This document shows, piece after piece, positions 1 through 24,381 of a stretch of 34,620 bases of DNA (positions within the stretch are counted from its first letter, which is position 1; every line of letters begins with the position of its first letter). Under the pieces are notes generated by a model. It searched no databases. It saw only the letters and a list, made by a program, of their open reading frames with translations, and was not told the DNA's origin. The DNA is from Caldilineaceae bacterium (GTDB lineage Bacteria > Chloroflexota > Anaerolineae > Caldilineales > Caldilineaceae): assembly GCA_019455155.1 (NCBI GenBank), contig JACFMY010000010.1:1-34620 (forward strand), written 5' to 3'. Made by a program: the position numbers and the translations under genes.

Positions 1-3000
1 CAAGCGTGGGCTTCCTCGTGCCGGCCTTGGGCCTCGCGCGTCTCTCCCAAGCGGCCCAGGCGGACATGCAAATAGTGTTGGTCCTCCATGCGCCGGGTGG
101 CCGCGATGGACTCTTCCATCATGGCCGCCCCCTTCTCCAGGTCACCGTCGTCCGCTGCCATGACGCCCAAATTGTAGAGCACAGACGACAGACCGCGCAG
201 AAAGCCGATCTCCCTCGCCAGCACCAATCCACGCTCAAAATAGGCGCGGGCTTGCGGCCGGTTGTTCTGATCCAGCTGATTCGTGCCCAGATTGTTGAGC
301 ACGATGACTTCGCCCACGCGATAGCCAGTCTCCCGTGCCTGGCGCAGCAACTGGAGAAAGTATCGATCGGACTGGGCAAAGTCCTTGCGCATAGCATAGA
401 CTGCGGCCAGATTGTTGAGAATCCGGCTCGTCCGGTGCTCGTCACCGAGCCCGCGTGAAAGGCGCAGCGCGGCTTCGAACTGTTCCGTGCCCTGTTCGTA
501 CTGGCCGCGCAGGCTGGCGGCCACTCCCAGGCTGTTTAGGGTCCAGGCCTCCCCGCGCCGGTCACCCAGTTCGCGGTAGAGCGCCAACGCGCGCTCGAGC
601 AGGGGATCAGCGTCCGCATTCGCAGCATACATGAGCAAATCGCCCAGGCATTGGCAGCACGCCGCCAACAGCGCAATGTCGCCAATGGTCTCGGCCTGCG
701 CCAGCGCACTTTCCAGTTCAAGGCGCCCCTCAGCAACCTTCCCTTGTGCATATAGGGTATTGCCACACCACATCCGGGCCATTACCTCGATGTGAGACAG
801 CCCATGGGCACGTGCAACTTCGGTGGCCTCTTGCGCGGCGGTGAGCGCCGGATCGTAATTGCCAAGCGTCGATTGGATCTTCGCCTGTTCAGCCAGCAAT
901 TGTGCCAGCAAAGCCGGGGCGTTCATCCCTCTGGCCTGAACTGACGCTTCCTCCACCGCGTCGCCTGCCTCGCGGTATAGGGCGGCCAGCTCAAAAAAGC
1001 GTACCAGGCCAGGCAACGCCTCCGTCAGGTATTGAAAATCTCCCTGTTGTACGGCCCACTGCCACGCGACCCGCACATTATCTAGCTCACGCCGGATGGC
1101 ATCTATAGCCGCGCCGGGTGTCGCTCCCACTAGCTCGCGGGCGTGCGTGGTTACTAAGGTCAGGTAATAGGTGTAGTGACGCCGCCGAACCTCAGCCTCG
1201 TCAGGTAGATAGCTGGCGGCGAATTGCCGGACCAACGTGTGGAGCGCATAGCGGCCAGGAGCCGCCACCTGCAAAAGCGACTTGTGCACCAACGCTGTTA
1301 ATTCGGCTACTGTTGCGCCAGTAACGGCAAGCGCCGCCTCCCGGCCAAACATACCGCGCATAACAGAGAGCTGCGCCAGGGTGCGCTGCTCGTCAGGCGC
1401 AAGCAGATGCCACGAATAGTCGAATACACCGCGCATGCTGCGGTGGCGGACAGGCAGATCGCGCATGGAGGTCTGAAGGAAGTCGATGCTGCGCGCGATC
1501 GCTTGCGCAATCTCCTGGCAGCTATATTCCTCGACCCAGCTTGCCGCCAGCTCGATGCCCAATGGTAGCCCACCCACCAACCGGCAGATTTCGGCCACAT
1601 GTGACAGCGTGTCATCTGCGAATGCGAACGCAAGCGCCGAACGCTGTGCCCGCTCTACAAAGAGCTGCACACAACTATACCTACGCAACGTTGCGAAGTT
1701 TTCCTCTGTGGATTCCGGCACGGGCAGACCGTCCAGGACGAACACGCTCTCAGCCTGGAGATGCAGACGCTCGCGCGTCGTCACCAGCACCTTCACACCT
1801 GCGGCTTGGGCCAATAGTGTTTGCACATAGCCTGCATACTCCAGAAGATGTTCGAAGTTGTCTAGAATGAGGAGCAGCTCGCGCCCGCGCAAAAAATCGA
1901 CGACCCGGCTGGCTGGATCGGCATGTTCGGGCAGCGAAATGCCCAGCGTTCTGACCAGCGCCGCAGCCAGACCCGTTTCCTTCTCGACGCCGATTAAATC
2001 GCTGAACCAGACGCCATCAGAAAAAAAGCCGACGAGCTCTGCCGCTGCGGCAAGCGCCAAACGGGTTTTGCCCGCGCCCCCTGGACCAACAATGCTTACC
2101 AGCCGGTTGGATGGATTCAACAGCGCGTGGCGCAGGCTGGTAAGCTCGTTGGTCCGGCCCACAAATGATGTGGTGGTCGCCGGCAGATTGTGGGCAGGAC
2201 GGCCGGCCACCGCTGCGGCAGCATCCGCGTTGACGCTTGCAACGCGCTCCTCCTCGATCTGCTCACGCAGCGTCTCTGTTTCGTGGCCAGGCGTAACGCC
2301 CAGCTCATCATATAAGACGCGCCAGCAAGTCTCATATGCGGCCAGCGCTTCGTTTCGGTGCCCGCTCTGTGCGAGGGCCCACATCGCCTGCCGGTATGCA
2401 TCCTCGCGCAGCGAATCGATGGCGAGCTGGCGTTGGGCCATCTGCAGGGCAAGATCGAATTCCCCGCGGCTGCCGTGCCACCGAGCCAGAGCAGACATCG
2501 CGTCGAGCGCGGTATGCTGATACCATTCTCGACGCAACAAGATCCACTCATCCAGCGCCGGGCTGTCCTCCACATAGAGCCCTTTGAGAAACTCGCCGCG
2601 ATAAAGAGCCACGGCTTCGGCATGGCGCGCCATGCAGGGTGCGCATTGGGTCAGCTCCGCGTGCCCATGTTGACGGCAGCGTTGCATCAATGTCTCAAAG
2701 GCCGCGGCATCGACCCAGCTGTTCCCAGAGCCGCGAAACTGGACCGTTCGTGTGGCGACCTCAAGAAAAGAATCTGCGCCTCTATCCGGCGTACGCAGCA
2801 GCGTCCGCAGTTGAAAGAGCGCCTGGCGCAAATTATGCAGGGCAGCAGAGTCGGGAACCTCCGGCCAGAGCAAGGCAGCCAGAGCAGAGCGGGCATGCGG
2901 CCGATCGCCTTCAAGCGCCAGGTAGGCCAACAACGCTGCATTCTTGATGGAACGAAAACTCAGGATCGGCTGTTCATCAAGCTGAACGTCAAGTGCGCCA

Positions 3001-3026
3001 AACATGTAGATCTGTAACGTGGGCAT
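1..3026 (-). CDS. BTAD/AfsR-type transcriptional regulator with NB-ARC ATPase and TPR repeats (3' end cut by window)
   Basis: The reading frame stays open from the ATG at 3026 to the window edge, about 1008 codons, so the C-terminus is missing. Residues 1-100 look like the OmpR-type winged helix of SARP/AfsR regulators (LALEGDRPHARSALAALLWP region). Residues 100-255 are the BTAD helical-repeat domain (GEFLKGLYVEDSPALDEW). A P-loop GPGGAGKT lies near residue 315 and a Walker B LLLILDNFEHLL near 382, followed by TTRERL, which is typical of NB-ARC/LuxR-AfsR-like ATPases. From about residue 650 to the edge the protein is TPR-like (LNSLGVAASLRGQYEQGTEQFEAALR). The family usually activates nearby promoters after a signal is sensed by the ATPase/TPR part; the signal here is unknown. 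The start is supported by a consensus promoter immediately upstream, which implies a leaderless mRNA. It diverges from the small gene at 3203. An H-x-H-x5-C-x2-C motif lies at residues 120-131. Confidence 0.9.
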   Translation of the reverse strand, partial: MPTLQIYMFGALDVQLDEQPILSFRSIKNAALLAYLALEGDRPHARSALAALLWPEVPDSAALHNLRQALFQLRTLLRTPDRGADSFLEVATRTVQFRGSGNSWVDAAAFETLMQRCRQHGHAELTQCAPCMARHAEAVALYRGEFLKGLYVEDSPALDEWILLRREWYQHTALDAMSALARWHGSRGEFDLALQMAQRQLAIDSLREDAYRQAMWALAQSGHRNEALAAYETCWRVLYDELGVTPGHETETLREQIEEERVASVNADAAAAVAGRPAHNLPATTTSFVGRTNELTSLRHALLNPSNRLVSIVGPGGAGKTRLALAAAAELVGFFSDGVWFSDLIGVEKETGLAAALVRTLGISLPEHADPASRVVDFLRGRELLLILDNFEHLLEYAGYVQTLLAQAAGVKVLVTTRERLHLQAESVFVLDGLPVPESTEENFATLRRYSCVQLFVERAQRSALAFAFADDTLSHVAEICRLVGGLPLGIELAASWVEEYSCQEIAQAIARSIDFLQTSMRDLPVRHRSMRGVFDYSWHLLAPDEQRTLAQLSVMRGMFGREAALAVTGATVAELTALVHKSLLQVAAPGRYALHTLVRQFAASYLPDEAEVRRRHYTYYLTLVTTHARELVGATPGAAIDAIRRELDNVRVAWQWAVQQGDFQYLTEALPGLVRFFELAALYREAGDAVEEASVQARGMNAPALLAQLLAEQAKIQSTLGNYDPALTAAQEATEVARAHGLSHIEVMARMWCGNTLYAQGKVAEGRLELESALAQAETIGDIALLAACCQCLGDLLMYAANADADPLLERALALYRELGDRRGEAWTLNSLGVAASLRGQYEQGTEQFEAALRLSRGLGDEHRTSRILNNLAAVYAMRKDFAQSDRYFLQLLRQARETGYRVGEVIVLNNLGTNQLDQNNRPQARAYFERGLVLAREIGFLRGLSSVLYNLGVMAADDGDLEKGAAMMEESIAATRRMEDQHYLHVRLGRLGETREAQGRHEEAHA

Positions 3027-3034
3027 GGGTTTCA

Positions 3035-3062
3035 ATTATAGGATGCATCTATTCACTGTCAA
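3035..3062 (-). promoter_or_regulatory. Consensus sigma-70-like promoter of the BTAD/NB-ARC regulator
   Basis: On the minus strand a perfect TTGACA (3062-3057) and a perfect TATAAT (3040-3035) are separated by 16 bp. Only 8 bp lie between the -10 and the ATG at 3026, and no Shine-Dalgarno sequence is present, so the transcript is probably leaderless or nearly so. Confidence 0.75.
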
Positions 3063-3102: not shown

Positions 3103-3134
3103 TTGACGATCTGCTGACGTTTGCCTGCTAGGAT
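3103..3134 (+). promoter_or_regulatory. Candidate SARP-type activator site and -10 for the small gene at 3203
   Basis: Heptamers TTGACGA (3103-3109) and CTGACGT (3114-3120) repeat with an 11-bp period. The second ends 8 bp before a -10-like TAGGAT (3129-3134). Known SARP sites in Streptomyces have this same period and -10 distance. A matching arrangement occurs at 23112-23143 beside the second BTAD gene. The inferred start of transcription is near 3141, about 60 nt before the small gene. Confidence 0.5.
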
Positions 3135-3202
3135 GATCAACCGTTACGAGACCCCGAAGCGTACACTAACCATTCGACCAGGTGAAGCGAGGAGACTATC
3201 GT

Positions 3203-3430
3203 ATGCAACCCATGGAAAAGGAAATCCCCACGATTCAAGACAGCACGGCAAATAACTATCAGATCTATCTGCTGCGCGTCTGGCGCAATGATTCCAACGA
3301 GCCGTGGCGCGTCACCGTCCACCGCACAGGTGAAAAGGAGCTCCAGCACTTCGCGAGTCTTTCTGAGTTCTATGCTGCGTTTTGGCAACGGTTAAGCGAT
3401 TCTAACCACCAAGAACAGCTGCCCGTCTGA
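3203..3430 (+). CDS. Small conserved-type hypothetical protein next to BTAD regulator
   Basis: This is a 75-residue protein. The ATG at 3203 is chosen because GAGGAG (3189-3194) sits 8 nt upstream; an in-frame GTG at 3182 would bury that ribosome site. The middle of the protein reads YQIYLLRVWRNDSNEPWRVT and is followed by a FASLSEFYAAFW stretch. That pattern (YLLR-W, then PWR, then FASL) resembles small proteins I recall from Chloroflexota regulators' neighbourhoods, but I cannot assign a function. There is no signal peptide or membrane segment. It is transcribed divergently from the BTAD/NB-ARC gene, downstream of a SARP-like repeat pair, so it may be the direct target of a BTAD regulator. 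Acidic and basic residues are mixed; it is likely cytoplasmic. Confidence 0.7.
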   Translation: MQPMEKEIPTIQDSTANNYQIYLLRVWRNDSNEPWRVTVHRTGEKELQHFASLSEFYAAFWQRLSDSNHQEQLPV

Positions 3431-3847
3431 AACGAGCGAGCCCAGAGCAAAACACATAGAGGGTAGCCTGGTTACCGGTTTTTCGTCTTCTCTTGTCCTC
3501 GTCGCATCATCGCTGCCGCAGCAGACGTCACAACGGAACACCTCATTCCCCTCGGCTGACAGGACTTCTGCCTTTATCCTTAGGGTATAGATAATCGCAA
3601 AGCATGCGGCGGATCGAACGCAGCGTGTCTCGCAAAGCGGAATCTGCGTCGATCCGCTGTATTTGCTGCGCCTGTGCTCTCTCCTGGCAACTAGACCCAT
3701 GCGGTATAATGGAGAAGCCATAGACCTTCTTACCAACAACCGGACTGTGATTGGCGATTCTTTTCTGCCTCAGCAGTTGCCGGGCAGCGCGTCATTCCAG
3801 ATCGCGTGCTTTCCTTTTTTTCATGCATTCACAGGAGGGAGTTCCGT
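3431..3847. other. Intergenic region before ridA
   Basis: I see no convincing gene in this 417-bp gap. A perfect TATAAT lies at 3705-3710 on the plus strand with only a weak -35 candidate (CTGGCA, 3684-3689, 15-bp spacing). It could give a transcript with a leader of about 130 nt for the RidA gene. A strong ribosome site AGGAGGG is at 3833-3839. Confidence 0.4.
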
Positions 3848-18328: not shown

Positions 18329-21300
18329 TCAATCGGAAATCTTGGGGCATACTTTCCGGTAGGGCAACACTTCCACGTACCGTTCCCATTCCTCATCCGT
18401 CAGATTCCGGTTGGCCATATCGCAGACGAGATCGCGCCAGGGGCGTATATCGAGCTGCCACATGAGGGCAGTGGTGTCGAAACTGCCCAGATAGGCGAAT
18501 CGGCCATCAGGGGAGACGGCCATTACTTCGCTCTCCTTCTCCGTCGGTATTAGCGGGGCCAGCGGCGCGTCCGTGGCCAAATCCCAGAAGAGAATATTGC
18601 CGTCGGAGCCAAGGGATATCAAGGTCTTTTCGCCGTGCGGTGGATAAAACTGAAGGGACCATACCTGGCCAGTATGTCCTGCGATCGCCTGGCCAACCGC
18701 GACACGTCTTTCCACGTCCCATCTGCGAATGGTATGATCCCCGCCACCGGAATACAACAGCTGGCCGTCATGGGTAAATAACAGGGAAGTAACCCAGTTG
18801 CCAGGGCTCGTCGATAGGCGCTTACCCTGCTCCTGAAGCTCCTGGTCATGCGCTGACTCCAGGCCAGCGACATTCCAGAACGCAATCGAGCTATCTGTGC
18901 CGCCTGAGGCCAACAAAGTCCCATCTGGGCTAAAGGCCAGCGACAGCGCCCAGCCATTGTGAGTGAGGGTGGGCGCACGTACCATCTCTCCCGTTTCCGT
19001 ATCCCAGACGATTACATAACCATCAAAATCGCCTGAGGCCAGGTAGCGTCCATTGGGGCTGAAGGCGAGGCCAATGATCACTGTTTTGTGCCCCACCAGG
19101 GAGGGGAAACGCAGCTGACGCGTGGCCGCGTCCCACAGCAACAGCTTGCCTCCAGCATCGGCCGTAGCCAGGATCCTGCCGTCGGGGCTGAACACGCCTT
19201 GAATGATCGGTCGTTCGTGCTCCTTGGGATAGTCAGCGACCCGCGCGCCATTTTCAGCGTTCCGGAGGACAATGCGGCCATCGAAGCCAGCCGTGACCAT
19301 GGTTCGACCATCAGGATTCACGGCAACCACGCGCACGCGGCCGGTATGGCCGGCGAGAATACGCCGTGATGCCAGATTCCAGGCCACGACAGTACCGTCG
19401 TCGTCCCCTGAATAGAGCATTGAGCCGTCGCGGCTGAAGCGCAACGTGCGCACCCAATTGTCATTGCCCGACAACGGCGAACCTAGGAGCATACCCGTTG
19501 CCACATCCCACAGATAGATCTTGTGATCCGTGCCGCCCGTGGCCAATATTGTTCCATCCGGGTTGAAGGCCGTGGCCAAGACGCGACCAGCATGTCCGCG
19601 CAGCGGATCTCCCAACAGCTCACCCGTAGCCAGGTTCCACAGCCGGACCGAACCGTCAAAGCTGGCTGTGGCCAGCATCGTGCTGTCATCGCTAAAGGCA
19701 ATTTGGTGAATTGTGGAGGTATGTCCCCCCATAAATATGGGGGACTGTTCGCCCGTTCTCAAATCCCATATGTTGACACCCACATCGTCGTCACTGCGGG
19801 TCTCTGTCACGGCCATGAGCAAGGCATCTGGACTCACGACAATGTTCTCAGTTTCGTCAGGTACCGTGACAGTGCTGATCGGGCGGCCCGATGCCAGGTC
19901 CCACAGCACTACGGTGCCCTGATTACTCAACGACATGAGCTTGCGATCCCCATCCGTGAACTGCAGCATCGTAATCTGGACATCTGTGTCCTGGGGGATT
20001 GTGCTTAGCACTTCGCCGGTCGATTCGTCAATCAATTCGATGCGGCGCTCGCGGGTCACGGCGATCTGTGTGGCATCGGACGAAATGGCTGCCACTACCC
20101 CTACTTCATCAGCAAACAGCTCGCCAGCATAACGACCATCCTGTGGGTTCCAGGCAAGCACAGTCGCGGCGGAGCCGTTGAGCGCAAATGCCACCATGCG
20201 CTGACGCACCGGATCTATCTCAAGTTGGTGAATGGCGCCGCGGTAGCTGTAATAGTAGCGCTCCAGCAGACGATTCGCTGTAGATTCGAGAAAATATGAT
20301 TCCATCTCAGACGGTTCGTCTGCCAGGTCCAGCGCCAATGCGGCCAGGAGTAGCGCGCGATCCAGCCGATCATCCTCAAGATTCAATGACTGGGCAATCA
20401 GCTGGCGAAGAAGCGCCAAACGGGCTTGCTCTTCCGCGCGGCTGCGCTGCTCCGCCGCAATCCGGCGCGCGTCTTCCGCCCTTCTGAGGGCTATCACGGC
20501 CTCTTCACGAGCATCAGTTGCCTGCTGCTGTTGCACAAAAGCCCAGATTGCGAAGGCAACTGCGACGCACAAAGCCAGGGCCAGGCCGGCGGAAAGCCAG
20601 CGCAGCCGGCGGCCCGCGGTGCGAGCCAGGTCAGCACGCCGCATTTCGGCATCAGCGCGCTGATGCTCAGCACGGGCTAACGCCTGCACGCGGTCAAGCT
20701 CGCGCTGCCGCGCCGCGTCCGCCTCGGCTTGCTGTCGATTACGCACGGCAATGCTGGCGCCGATATAGCGCTGTTCGGCCGCACTTAACTCATCGTCGCG
20801 CTGTTCAGCCCACTGTTCCGCTTCGGCTAGCACCGCGCCGCGCAGGAGTAGATCTTCTTCTTGACCGCTAGCCTGCCATTGCTGTAGCGATGTCCGCAGC
20901 CGCTGCTGCCAACGGCGGAAATCGCGATTATCATCCATCCACGCGCGCAGCCGTCCCCAGCTCCAGATCAACGCCTCATGGACAAGCTCCACGACCTCCT
21001 CTCCCGCAGCATTGACCCCAGTTACCACAAGACGCAGGTCAGCCAGTTTTTGCGCCAGGTGCCAGCCGTCGGGACCCACCTCAGCTCGCGTCGCCGGCCG
21101 GCGCGTATCCTCCGTGGACTCCCCAGGCAATACCAGTTGCGTGAAGAGGTGCCGGGCCAGAGGCCGGTCGGCGGCAGGCAGACGATCAAAGACATGGTCC
21201 GCGTAGCGCGCCACAGCGGCGGCCACACCGCCGATCTCATCGTAAACCGCGTGGGTCAACCGGCTATCCTCGCGCCGGGCCCAGAGCTGAGTAAGCGCAA

Positions 21301-22909
21301 ACTGAAGCAGGGGTAGATTGCCCGGTTCTTCACCCACGTCGTCCAACAGCCGATCGACCAGTCCTGGCTCAAAGAGCACACCCCGGTTGCGCGCCGGCTC
21401 CTCAATCGCCGCACGGAGTTCCTCGCGGGTCATGGGCCCTAACACGATGCCACCGCGCTGGACTACGTCGGCCAGAGGCCTTTGGGTGAGGACCTGGCTC
21501 ATGAAATCCGCACGCAGCGACGCGAGAATCGTTAGGGGCAGTTCGTGTTGGCTTGCCTGTTCTACGGCGCTATGGAGCAGATCGACAAATCTACGCCGGG
21601 TGCCCACGTCCCGGCACAGCGTATACAGCTCTTCAAATTGATCGATAAAGATCAGCAGGCGTTCAGCATTGTGAGACGGCAATGCCAGGATTTCAGTAAC
21701 CGTGTCAAAAAGAGCCGTGTTGTCCTCACAGAACGCCGCAGCCAGAACAGACAGCTGGGGCGTTTCCGGCAACAGGTGCACCAGTGCTTCAGCCAGTGAC
21801 TGAAATGGATCCACACCTGGCCGCATTATGGTTGTTTTCCACCGGAGGGAAGGTCCACCGTTCATCGCGTGAACCTCCCCGGCCGGCGCCAAAGGCGCTG
21901 CCGGTTTAGCAAGACTGGGCAGTAATCCTGCCAGGATTGCGGAGGATTTGCCGCTGCCCGAAGCGCCAAGTACCACAACCATGGGTGACCTGTGGACAGC
22001 CTCGAAAAGGTAACGTACCGCCTCAGCACGACCGTAATAGTCAGCGGCATCCTGCTGGCCAAATGGATAAAGCCCCTTGTACGGGGTGTCACTCTCCAAC
22101 AGCTCGGGCAAGAGTTCGCGCGCTTTGATCTGTTCGTATAGGGCCACGGTTTCGGGCGACAGATCCGCCGCCAACTCCTCCGCAATGATGCGCTGCGCGA
22201 CTTCAAACTGATTCAAAGCCGCCACGCGGCGGCCACTGAGCGCCAGCACTCGCATGAGCCCGCGGTGCGTCTCCTCACTCCACGGTTCCAGTTCCAGCAT
22301 CCGCTGCAGGAAGCGACGCGCCTTATCATATTCTCGCCGCCGCTCGTAGAAGGTAGTCAGATGCGTCAGCGCGGACAACACGCGCGCCTGCAATTTGGCC
22401 CGCTGCTGTTCCCGCCATAGATCAAACTCATTGGCATCCGGCAAGGTCAGCCCGTGTAGGAAGTCACCCGTATAGAGAGCAACCGCCTGCTCCACCAGTT
22501 CCATGCACTCGGCACAGGCGTCAAGCCTGCGGTGTTGGTGACGCTCGACCGCGTTGAGTGTGGTGTTGAACGCATGCACATCCACCCAACAGTCTGGGCC
22601 GAGAGTGAACCGTACATCCAACCGTGAGATCTGGAGGCACGCGTCGTGTTCATCGTCCGATCCGGCTTCGCCTTCGACGCCGGTCAGAGCCTTACGCAAT
22701 ACGTAGAGCCGCTGGCGCAGATTCTGCAGCGCGCTTTGGGGGCTAGCTTCGGGCCAAAGCAGCGCGGCCAAGGCATCGCGTGGATGAACGCGGTCCGCTT
22801 CGACAGCCAGATAGGCCAACAACGCGCGGCCTTTCTGTGTGTCGAGCGTCGTAATCGGTTCACCATTTACGCTGATTTCGTAGGAACCCAGAAGCCTCAA
22901 TGAGAGCAT
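18329..22909 (-). CDS. Giant BTAD-nSTAND-transmembrane-WD40 regulator
   Basis: This 1526-residue protein has five parts. Residues 1-100 are a SARP-type winged helix (MLSLRLLGSYEISVNGEPI, HPRDALAALLWPEASPQSALQNLRQRLY) and 100-262 a BTAD domain with H-x-H-x5-C-x2-C at 124-135. Residues 277-700 are an nSTAND1-type ATPase: YKGLYPFGQQDAADYYGR, P-loop GASGSGKSS at 315-323, Walker B LLIFIDQFEEL at 418-428, and ELVHEALIWSW at 641-651. A charged coiled coil (about 720-765) leads to a hydrophobic helix at 769-791, and a second coiled coil follows. From about 890 to 1500 I count 14 WD40-type units, enough for two seven-bladed propellers. The domain order suggests a one-component regulator whose propellers lie across the membrane from its DNA-binding end. 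A ribosome site AGGGG is about 9 nt before the ATG. Its target genes are unknown. Confidence 0.9.
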   Translation of the reverse strand: MLSLRLLGSYEISVNGEPITTLDTQKGRALLAYLAVEADRVHPRDALAALLWPEASPQSALQNLRQRLYVLRKALTGVEGEAGSDDEHDACLQISRLDVRFTLGPDCWVDVHAFNTTLNAVERHQHRRLDACAECMELVEQAVALYTGDFLHGLTLPDANEFDLWREQQRAKLQARVLSALTHLTTFYERRREYDKARRFLQRMLELEPWSEETHRGLMRVLALSGRRVAALNQFEVAQRIIAEELAADLSPETVALYEQIKARELLPELLESDTPYKGLYPFGQQDAADYYGRAEAVRYLFEAVHRSPMVVVLGASGSGKSSAILAGLLPSLAKPAAPLAPAGEVHAMNGGPSLRWKTTIMRPGVDPFQSLAEALVHLLPETPQLSVLAAAFCEDNTALFDTVTEILALPSHNAERLLIFIDQFEELYTLCRDVGTRRRFVDLLHSAVEQASQHELPLTILASLRADFMSQVLTQRPLADVVQRGGIVLGPMTREELRAAIEEPARNRGVLFEPGLVDRLLDDVGEEPGNLPLLQFALTQLWARREDSRLTHAVYDEIGGVAAAVARYADHVFDRLPAADRPLARHLFTQLVLPGESTEDTRRPATRAEVGPDGWHLAQKLADLRLVVTGVNAAGEEVVELVHEALIWSWGRLRAWMDDNRDFRRWQQRLRTSLQQWQASGQEEDLLLRGAVLAEAEQWAEQRDDELSAAEQRYIGASIAVRNRQQAEADAARQRELDRVQALARAEHQRADAEMRRADLARTAGRRLRWLSAGLALALCVAVAFAIWAFVQQQQATDAREEAVIALRRAEDARRIAAEQRSRAEEQARLALLRQLIAQSLNLEDDRLDRALLLAALALDLADEPSEMESYFLESTANRLLERYYYSYRGAIHQLEIDPVRQRMVAFALNGSAATVLAWNPQDGRYAGELFADEVGVVAAISSDATQIAVTRERRIELIDESTGEVLSTIPQDTDVQITMLQFTDGDRKLMSLSNQGTVVLWDLASGRPISTVTVPDETENIVVSPDALLMAVTETRSDDDVGVNIWDLRTGEQSPIFMGGHTSTIHQIAFSDDSTMLATASFDGSVRLWNLATGELLGDPLRGHAGRVLATAFNPDGTILATGGTDHKIYLWDVATGMLLGSPLSGNDNWVRTLRFSRDGSMLYSGDDDGTVVAWNLASRRILAGHTGRVRVVAVNPDGRTMVTAGFDGRIVLRNAENGARVADYPKEHERPIIQGVFSPDGRILATADAGGKLLLWDAATRQLRFPSLVGHKTVIIGLAFSPNGRYLASGDFDGYVIVWDTETGEMVRAPTLTHNGWALSLAFSPDGTLLASGGTDSSIAFWNVAGLESAHDQELQEQGKRLSTSPGNWVTSLLFTHDGQLLYSGGGDHTIRRWDVERRVAVGQAIAGHTGQVWSLQFYPPHGEKTLISLGSDGNILFWDLATDAPLAPLIPTEKESEVMAVSPDGRFAYLGSFDTTALMWQLDIRPWRDLVCDMANRNLTDEEWERYVEVLPYRKVCPKISD

Positions 22910-23111: not shown

Positions 23112-23143
23112 TTGACGAATCTGTGACGTTCGATTGCTATAGT
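23112..23143 (+). promoter_or_regulatory. Second candidate SARP-type site and -10, no gene downstream
   Basis: Heptamers TTGACGA (23112-23118) and GTGACGT (23123-23129) have an 11-bp period, and the second ends 8 bp before TATAGT (23138-23143). Aligned with 3103-3134, 21 of 32 positions agree without gaps. The direction points away from the WD40 regulator, into a stretch with no recognisable gene. Confidence 0.45.
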
Positions 23144-23342
23144 AATGACACTTGCCGGCTTACCTGGCTGTGAGAACTCTTCCTCCCCGGAGCTATCAAC
23201 AGATTCATGTTCGTTAGTTTCCGGATCGGCGCATCCCTCGGCGTCGGTCCGGTGCTATGCATGCATCCTTGCAGGCAATGCGTTTCACCCACCCGTCTTA
23301 CCACTAATTGGGTGTCGTGTCCTGCTAGGTTGAAACCCGGCC

Positions 23343-23372
23343 ATAGCAATACACCGTATAGCAATACACCGT
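23343..23372. repeat. 15-bp perfect tandem duplication
   Basis: ATAGCAATACACCGT is present twice head to tail (23343-23357, 23358-23372) just beyond the 3' end of the leftward LLM gene. It is probably a replication slip or a two-unit repeat. Confidence 0.8.
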
Positions 23373-23385
23373 CCAGACAAATAGG

Positions 23386-24381
23386 CTATTCAGCGCGGAA
23401 GTAATGGATCACTTCGCCGAGTAATCGTACTGCGGCAAGCCGGTCCGGCCCCAACGGCGGGCCAAAGCTGAGGTGGCGCACGCCCGCTTCCACCAAAGGT
23501 CCCAGCCGCTCGATGACGTCAGTTACTGTACCCGTGACGCCGATCCGCAACATGCGTTCGTCTACAAGGCTGACAGCCTTTTCCACATCCCGCTCAACCA
23601 TGATGGCACGCTCGATTGGCACAAAGTCCGTCTTGGCTAACCCAAGCCGCTCAAGGATCAATGGCCCCAGCGCATGCCCATAGTAGGCGATCTTTTCGGC
23701 GAGCACCTGACGCGCGGCCGCTCGATCAGCGGAAAGCGAAACCCATATGCACGCGGCAAAATCCAGCGTATCCAACGCCGCGTCGCGATTGGCAATGCCT
23801 GCCTGCACGTAGGGCAGCACCGTCGCGTAATGCTCGGGTGGAAACAGCAGCGGCAAGACCCCGTCCGCCAGGGCACCGGCAAGTGCCAACATTCTGGGCC
23901 CCATTGCCCCAATATAGATCGGGGTCACGCGCGGCGCTTTGAAACGCAGATAGGCTTCCTCGCTCCATTGCAGAAAACGTCCCCTTAGCGCCGCTGGGTG
24001 GCCCTGCAGCAGGCCGCGCACTGCCAACACTGTCTCGCGTGTAGCCGATAGCGGCGTATCCTGTGCAATGCCCACCCATTTGAGGAAATCACCCGCGCCG
24101 GCCGCCAACCCAAGATTGAAGCGATTGCCACTCACTTCGTCCAGTGTGGCGGCCAGCATCGCTATCTCGGCTGGATGGATAGTGTAGGGGTTGAGGATTC
24201 CTGTACCGATCTCGATCCGTGTCGTGGCGTGGGCCACTGCGGTGAGGATGACGGGCGCACTGCGCAAGAACAGGTCGTTGCTGACCCAGAATTGGTCAAA
24301 GCCAGCGCTTTCGGCCGCACGCGCCAGCCGGATATACTCTTCCAGGGAGAGATCGTTATTGAGCCGCAGACTGAAACGCAT
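23386..24381 (-). CDS. LLM-class (probably F420-dependent) oxidoreductase
   Basis: This 331-residue TIM-barrel enzyme begins MRFSLRLNNDLSLEEYIRLARAAESAGFDQFW, a classic LLM opening. It continues with HATTRIEIGTGILNPYTIHPAEIAMLAATLDEV and RFNLGLAAGAGDFLKWVG, as in the 5,10-methylenetetrahydromethanopterin-reductase-like group. TPIYIGAMGPRMLALAGALADGVLP is also a strong family mark. The cofactor is inferred as F420 or FMN; the substrate is unknown. It starts 51 bp after the RidA-family gene and is likely cotranscribed with it. It is related to, but not a close copy of, the LLM enzyme at 11443-12444. Confidence 0.88.
   Translation of the reverse strand: MRFSLRLNNDLSLEEYIRLARAAESAGFDQFWVSNDLFLRSAPVILTAVAHATTRIEIGTGILNPYTIHPAEIAMLAATLDEVSGNRFNLGLAAGAGDFLKWVGIAQDTPLSATRETVLAVRGLLQGHPAALRGRFLQWSEEAYLRFKAPRVTPIYIGAMGPRMLALAGALADGVLPLLFPPEHYATVLPYVQAGIANRDAALDTLDFAACIWVSLSADRAAARQVLAEKIAYYGHALGPLILERLGLAKTDFVPIERAIMVERDVEKAVSLVDERMLRIGVTGTVTDVIERLGPLVEAGVRHLSFGPPLGPDRLAAVRLLGEVIHYFRAE

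Follow-up and report, generated by a model that had tools for sequence, protein, structure and literature searches.

The window (the whole stretch of DNA analysed, 34,620 nucleotides from a Chloroflexota genome) carried two genes for BTAD regulators. Upstream of each lay a pair of direct repeats followed by a -10 element. The features were as follows.

1–3026, minus strand: BTAD regulator 1 (P0001), AfsR-like, with OmpR-like winged helix, BTAD, NB-ARC/AAA and TPR; incomplete, cut at the contig end
2799–2843, minus strand: recognition helix of regulator 1, NLRQALFQLRT, corresponding to AfsR residues 82–96 by alignment with 8hvr
3035–3062, minus strand: perfect sigma-70 promoter of BTAD gene 1, TTGACA-N16-TATAAT (12/12 matches), divergent from the operator
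3103–3113, plus strand: site 1, direct repeat 1, TTGACGATCTG, predicted upstream SARP half-site, -38 to -28
3114–3124, plus strand: site 1, direct repeat 2, CTGACGTTTGC, predicted downstream SARP half-site
3129–3134, plus strand: site 1, -10 element TAGGAT, TGC just before; 4 bp past the 22-bp box and 8 bp past the second heptamer
3141, plus strand: predicted transcription start, 7 nt past the -10, placed by the register of leaderless relatives
3203–3430, plus strand: gene of a 75-aa small protein (ATG at 3203, stop at 3428–3430), predicted target, member of a beta-beta-beta-alpha family
3462–3484, plus strand: terminator-like hairpin and T run, candidate end of the small-protein transcript; the region has 2 such structures vs. 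1.0 expected in shuffles, so the call is weak alone
18329–22909, minus strand: BTAD regulator 2 (P0002), 1526 aa, with winged helix, BTAD, nSTAND1 NTPase and WD40 propeller
23112–23122, plus strand: site 2, direct repeat 1, TTGACGAATCT
23123–23133, plus strand: site 2, direct repeat 2, GTGACGTTCGA
23138–23143, plus strand: site 2, -10 element TATAGT

The BTAD domains of the two regulators scored E 1.3e-23 and 2.9e-19 and stood behind an N-terminal OmpR-like winged helix, as in SARPs. The winged helix and BTAD part could be aligned with AfsR (8hvr) and EmbR (2fez), recognition helix included. In regulator 1, Q72 corresponds to AfsR residue 92 and R67 to AfsR residue 87. A receiver domain, the hallmark of OmpR/PhoB proteins, was found neither among the Pfam families listed for P0001 nor among the best 25 of 66 Pfam matches of P0002. 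The ATG of BTAD gene 1 lay just 8 nt past its -10, and this message may also be leaderless. A single-protein scan with regulator 1 returned 6 distant loci; a full-length BTAD-profile match was obtained at L260 only, and no small-protein match was found at L260.

The sequence was re-read, and the layout described in the initial annotation was real at both places. Positions 3103–3134 read TTGACGA-TCTG-CTGACGT-TTGCCTGC-TAGGAT, and the proposed twin at 23112–23143 reads TTGACGA-ATCT-GTGACGT-TCGATTGC-TATAGT. By hand count, 21 of 32 positions were identical, as claimed. Both sites showed direct repeats with an 11-bp period and, between the 3' repeat and the -10 element, a distance of 8 bp, which is the SARP arrangement. 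The start codons of the two BTAD genes lie at 3026 and 22909; site 1 began 77 nt upstream of the first and site 2 began 203 nt upstream of the second, each oriented away from its BTAD gene.

The rarity of the motif was investigated in the window and in the whole genome. The pattern of the initial annotation had 2 exact matches in the window and 0 in 100 shuffles. In the genome (6,854,888 bases), sites 1 and 2 were the only hits, whether up to 1 mismatch was allowed to this pattern, up to 3 to a stricter consensus or up to 1 to a relaxed core. Random placement, which was to be looked for in such a search, was not what was found: both matches were divergent from BTAD genes. A control pattern read backward gave 0 matches in the whole 6.85-Mb genome. 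The assembly (G000) was fragmented, with 780 contigs and 5.3% contamination. It held 24 BTAD genes, and the TGACG version of the box occurred at only 2 of them; the same geometry with different letters was present at three further BTAD genes (L008, L016 and L023). A divergent box above the shuffle range was found at 5 of the 24 (L004, L008, L014, L016 and L023), and 3 of these five BTAD genes were divergent from a small-protein gene.

A total of 150 relatives were searched with DNA only, using the consensus with up to 3 mismatches. One site with 0 mismatches was found in another genus (L049), together with many weaker sites. The clustering proposed earlier was borne out among the 49 inspected sites, all outside the window genome: 14 adjoined BTAD genes, 19–214 nt upstream and reading away, where chance adjacency was estimated by the author at about 1% (about 24 BTAD genes per genome of such size). 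One further inspected site lay near a BTAD gene in a different layout. In L048, the BTAD-linked box at 1501–1532 faced a gene that looked SpoVS-like by eye, without a search, and not a small-protein gene.

The geometry was quantified with a strict criterion: a heptamer repeat with at least 6/7 matching, a period of 11, and TANNNT 8 bp on. A period of 11 at a distance of 8 was found in 27 of 61 divergent regions that had been chosen independently of the motif. In the same 61 regions, periods of 8–10 and 12–16 at this distance gave 0–1, the reverse strand gave 2, and shuffles gave a mean of 0.3. Distances of 9–10 also scored, because the repeat exceeds 7 bp. For a hold-out of 45 new regions, the code and predictions were written beforehand; 18 of the 45 showed the geometry, compared with at most 1 in controls. 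Overall, 51 of 116 small-protein/BTAD intergenic regions passed, compared with 51 of 4000 random genomic windows. The strict criterion was thus passed by about 44% of the regions, and the remainder had a weaker site or none.

The registered sites read nnnACGwTTnn twice, then a gap of 4, then TAnnnT; the 4-bp gap between the 22-bp box and the -10 was found in 85 of 98 sites. The base frequencies at positions 4–6 lean to ACG because the site finder partly weights the ACG core, while bases 1–3 were unweighted toward any letter. Repeats 1 and 2 were identical at bases 1–3 in 83, 79 and 87% of cases vs. 30–45% expected, an agreement that is partly built in, since repeat identity enters the site score; the residue-base associations are not affected in this way. 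Bases 1–3 varied between loci and agreed within a locus, which fits a pair of identical protein molecules, each reading one repeat. Boxes seemingly with three repeats in 11-bp steps, like some Streptomyces SARP sites, were seen in L075, L071 and L078.

The relation between the recognition helix and the repeat letters was investigated with 47 BTADs less than 60% identical. Residues were numbered as in AfsR, from the BTAD alignment to AfsR, and 132 residue-base combinations were tested by permutation. The four strongest associations were those of residue 87 with base 6 (z = 11.7), residue 84 with base 3 (z = 6.0), residue 88 with base 2 (z = 5.5) and residue 92 with base 1 (z = 5.3). In the hold-out, in which row L181 repeats a locus of the first set, L123, with a slightly different cut, Arg92 went with G1 at p = 0.006 (both repeats) or 9e-5 (either), and Arg87 with G6 in 34/34 vs. 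0/2 (p = 0.0016). In the combined sets, whose rows are related, Arg92 went with G1 in 14/19 vs. 5/75 (p = 6e-9) and Arg87 with G6 in 84/88 vs. 1/6 (p = 1e-5). The Arg92-G1 rule was broken by 10 of 94 regulators, one of them via a register slip. Arg92 changed at least 10 times on the tree. A tree-based test of independent pairs gave 4 supported pairs for residue 92 (3 agreeing on average, 0.1 opposing, p = 0.25) and 1 for residue 87, and it fell short of significance because supported pairs were too few. Where Ser or Thr replaced Arg87 (L115, L114, L071, L078, L092, L123 and L117), the repeats were without the ACG core; repeats of regulators lacking Arg87 included CTGATAG, TTGAGG, CTGACAC and ATCGTA.

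The start site was placed from the relatives. An ATG lay exactly 6 nt past the -10 in 10 of 98 units, compared with about 1–2 at most other offsets. This indicates leaderless messages, whose +1 is the A of the ATG and whose -10 element spans -12 to -7; bases 1, 3 and 6 of the direct repeat then fall at -38, -36 and -33, respectively. The start near 3141 postulated in the initial annotation coincides with the position predicted from this register. In promoter numbering, the covarying pairs are residue 92 with base -38, residue 88 with -37 and -36, and residue 87 with -33. In the AfsR complex, R92 contacts T-38, T88 contacts the template-strand G-36, and R87 touches the backbone from -35 to -33 (PMC10936776). 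The covariation was obtained without use of the AfsR structure coordinates. Through this covariation at AfsR contact positions, the results indirectly suggested that the recognition helix reads the repeat, as a SARP would.

The 75-residue ORF is a real gene by homology. Downstream of most motif sites, a protein of 56–90 residues was found with the consensus YxSYLLRLW...WRASLE..TGER.GFA.L..LF.FL. In Pfam, NCBIfam and PDB, no family matched it above chance. Its AlphaFold2 model showed a beta-beta-beta-alpha fold with a mean pLDDT of 82 (about 95 in the strands), and a fold search of the PDB gave nothing below E 0.6 and no convincing neighbour. The small protein belongs to an undescribed beta-beta-beta-alpha family. 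Its profile matched in 84 of 150 relatives and in 59 of 400 genomes of the phylum; as many as 18 copies of the family (L056–L145) were seen in a single genome (G004). When loci were picked by the small protein alone, a BTAD gene was divergent in 70 of 90, which partly overlap (71 unique regions remain, motif-found ones included). The figure was 48 of 89 in a second set with weaker matches and more distant genomes. Orphan small-protein genes with no BTAD neighbour were mostly without a strict site.

At loci with at least 700 nt beyond the small protein, the next same-strand gene had a hydrophobic signal-like start in 56 of 66 cases vs. 8 of 55 control ORFs, at a median distance of 63.5 nt for the exported or membrane gene. 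On this count, the usual unit consists of a regulator, a small protein and an exported protein. An exported or membrane partner may point to a surface or secretion function. At the window locus the exported gene was absent, and the terminator-like hairpin followed the small-protein gene. For the small protein, the likeliest role, on weak support, is that of a partner in the cytosol or of a feedback factor in the pathway. Among the papers searched, none was found on the regulator/small protein/exported protein cassette.

Conservation upstream of orthologous BTAD genes had been called for, and site 2 was found conserved at relatives of its BTAD gene. The closest relatives of regulator 2, in two other genomes, have 44% identity and the same BTAD-nSTAND-WD40 size class of 1500–1580 aa, and both carry the motif in the same divergent position. 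Site 1 faces the 75-residue gene, and no target could be assigned to site 2. No small-protein gene or other conserved ORF followed the box in the three related loci. In the window, 23144–23385 held no recognisable gene after the second box, and the next gene (23386–24381) is on the opposite strand. The output of site 2 is possibly autoregulation or an untranslated RNA.

The preferred reading, with a probability of about 0.86 on sequence evidence, is that 3103–3134 is a SARP-type activator box with its -10 element, used by the adjoining AfsR-like regulator for the small-protein gene. Regulator 1 (BTAD/NB-ARC/TPR) would be made from its own consensus sigma-70 promoter at 3062–3035. Sensor part permitting, it would occupy both 11-bp repeats side by side, which replace a -35 element, and recruit RNA polymerase to start at about 3141. 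The small-protein gene (3203–3430) would thereby be switched on, and its transcript would end at the terminator near 3462–3484. Residues 84, 87, 88, 91 and 92 of the recognition helix (AfsR numbering) would set the letters of the repeat. One regulator with one divergent target promoter would be a local design widespread in Chloroflexota, usually with an exported gene after the small protein. Geometry, conservation, residue-base covariation, leaderless starts and gene pairing are properties of the sequences themselves, and from them we infer binding, activation and control by sensor domains.

The strongest competitor, itself improbable, is autoregulation: the BTAD protein would act through the box on its own gene, as a repressor or an autoactivator, and the box would not be an activator site of the divergent gene. 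The box does lie between divergent genes, and neither site 2 nor its two closest relatives has a conserved divergent gene after it. However, the -10 element stands on the strand leading away from BTAD at a fixed spacing, the divergent gene has leaderless starts 6 nt past this -10, and BTAD gene 1 is preceded by a perfect promoter of its own that lies outside the box. Autoregulation and activation of the divergent gene could coexist.

It is very unlikely that an OmpR/PhoB-type two-component response regulator occupies the site, with the BTAD gene as bystander or target. The geometry alone is not SARP-specific, because PhoP of M. tuberculosis uses 7-bp direct repeats with a 4-bp spacer (PMC4832192). 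Against such a regulator, the repeat letters track the recognition helix of the adjoining BTAD protein, the sites are clustered near BTAD genes belonging to many families, and the Pfam matches listed for P0001 and P0002 include no receiver domain. A response-regulator box was disfavoured by the covariation with the BTAD helix. An ordinary or extended -10 promoter, with TTGACG as the -35 box and a repeat by chance, is least probable of all. TTGACG does resemble a -35 element, and TGC stands ahead of both TAGGAT and TATAGT, but it stands 20 bp from the -10, which is too great a distance, the genome has no other copy of the pattern, and the period of 11 was strongly enriched in the 116 regions over shuffles and random windows. 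A chance repeat was rejected on the window shuffles, the genome-wide rarity and the period-11 enrichment over random windows.

The claim that these BTAD proteins are SARP-like activators thus gains support from the clustering, the specificity of the geometry and the covariation between bases and recognition helix. Judged from sequence, SARP-type operators are present and diversified in Chloroflexota. The regulators would be SARP-type single-target activators, mostly for a small protein and then an exported protein. A large and diversified set of such switches is probably present in Chloroflexota, with operators that can be read from the regulator by a residue-to-base code and with a small-protein family, itself tied to exported proteins, as the output. 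Examples of such a code are a G at -38 in company with Arg at position 92 (AfsR numbering) and a missing G at -33 where Arg87 is missing. New here are the cassette found across the class, the family of small proteins and the testable recognition code.

SARP operators have been studied in Streptomyces. With the SARP architecture spread across another phylum, natural variants were numerous enough to yield a protein-DNA recognition code in agreement with the contacts in the AfsR cryo-EM structure. Where BTAD regulators bind thus becomes predictable and directly testable, and a nameless conserved cassette of regulator, small protein and exported protein is exposed. If the code is true, it could be used to predict targets of BTAD regulators that are still uncharacterised, those of antibiotic clusters included.

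The closest known system is AfsR, the afs box and afsS of Streptomyces coelicolor (PMC10936776). AfsR likewise consists of winged helix, BTAD, NOD and TPR, and its 22-bp box, made of two 11-bp direct repeats, overlaps the -35 region, with afsS as the target. The AfsR contact positions 87, 88, 91 and 92 (PMC10936776) are among the covarying residues in Chloroflexota. The AfsR repeat CGTT(T/C)ATCG (PMC10972967) and the TTCACG class of Chloroflexota have TT(T/C)A in common at -38 to -35. The Chloroflexota systems differ in phylum, in the divergent position of the target, in box letters of many classes, and in genomes with many regulators, each with its own site. The target in Chloroflexota is a beta-beta-beta-alpha protein that looks unrelated, and an exported protein usually comes next. 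Small and large Streptomyces SARPs (DnrI, ActII-ORF4 and PimR) also use heptameric direct repeats in 11-bp units, the last near the -10 (PMC10972967). Those SARPs were reviewed as activators of secondary-metabolite clusters (PMC10972967), whereas the downstream genes in Chloroflexota mostly encode exported proteins. Among PDB sequences, the winged helix-BTAD part matched EmbR of M. tuberculosis best (PDB 2fez, E 1.4e-8). This likeness concerns the protein only, and EmbR has an FHA domain where regulator 1 has NB-ARC/TPR.
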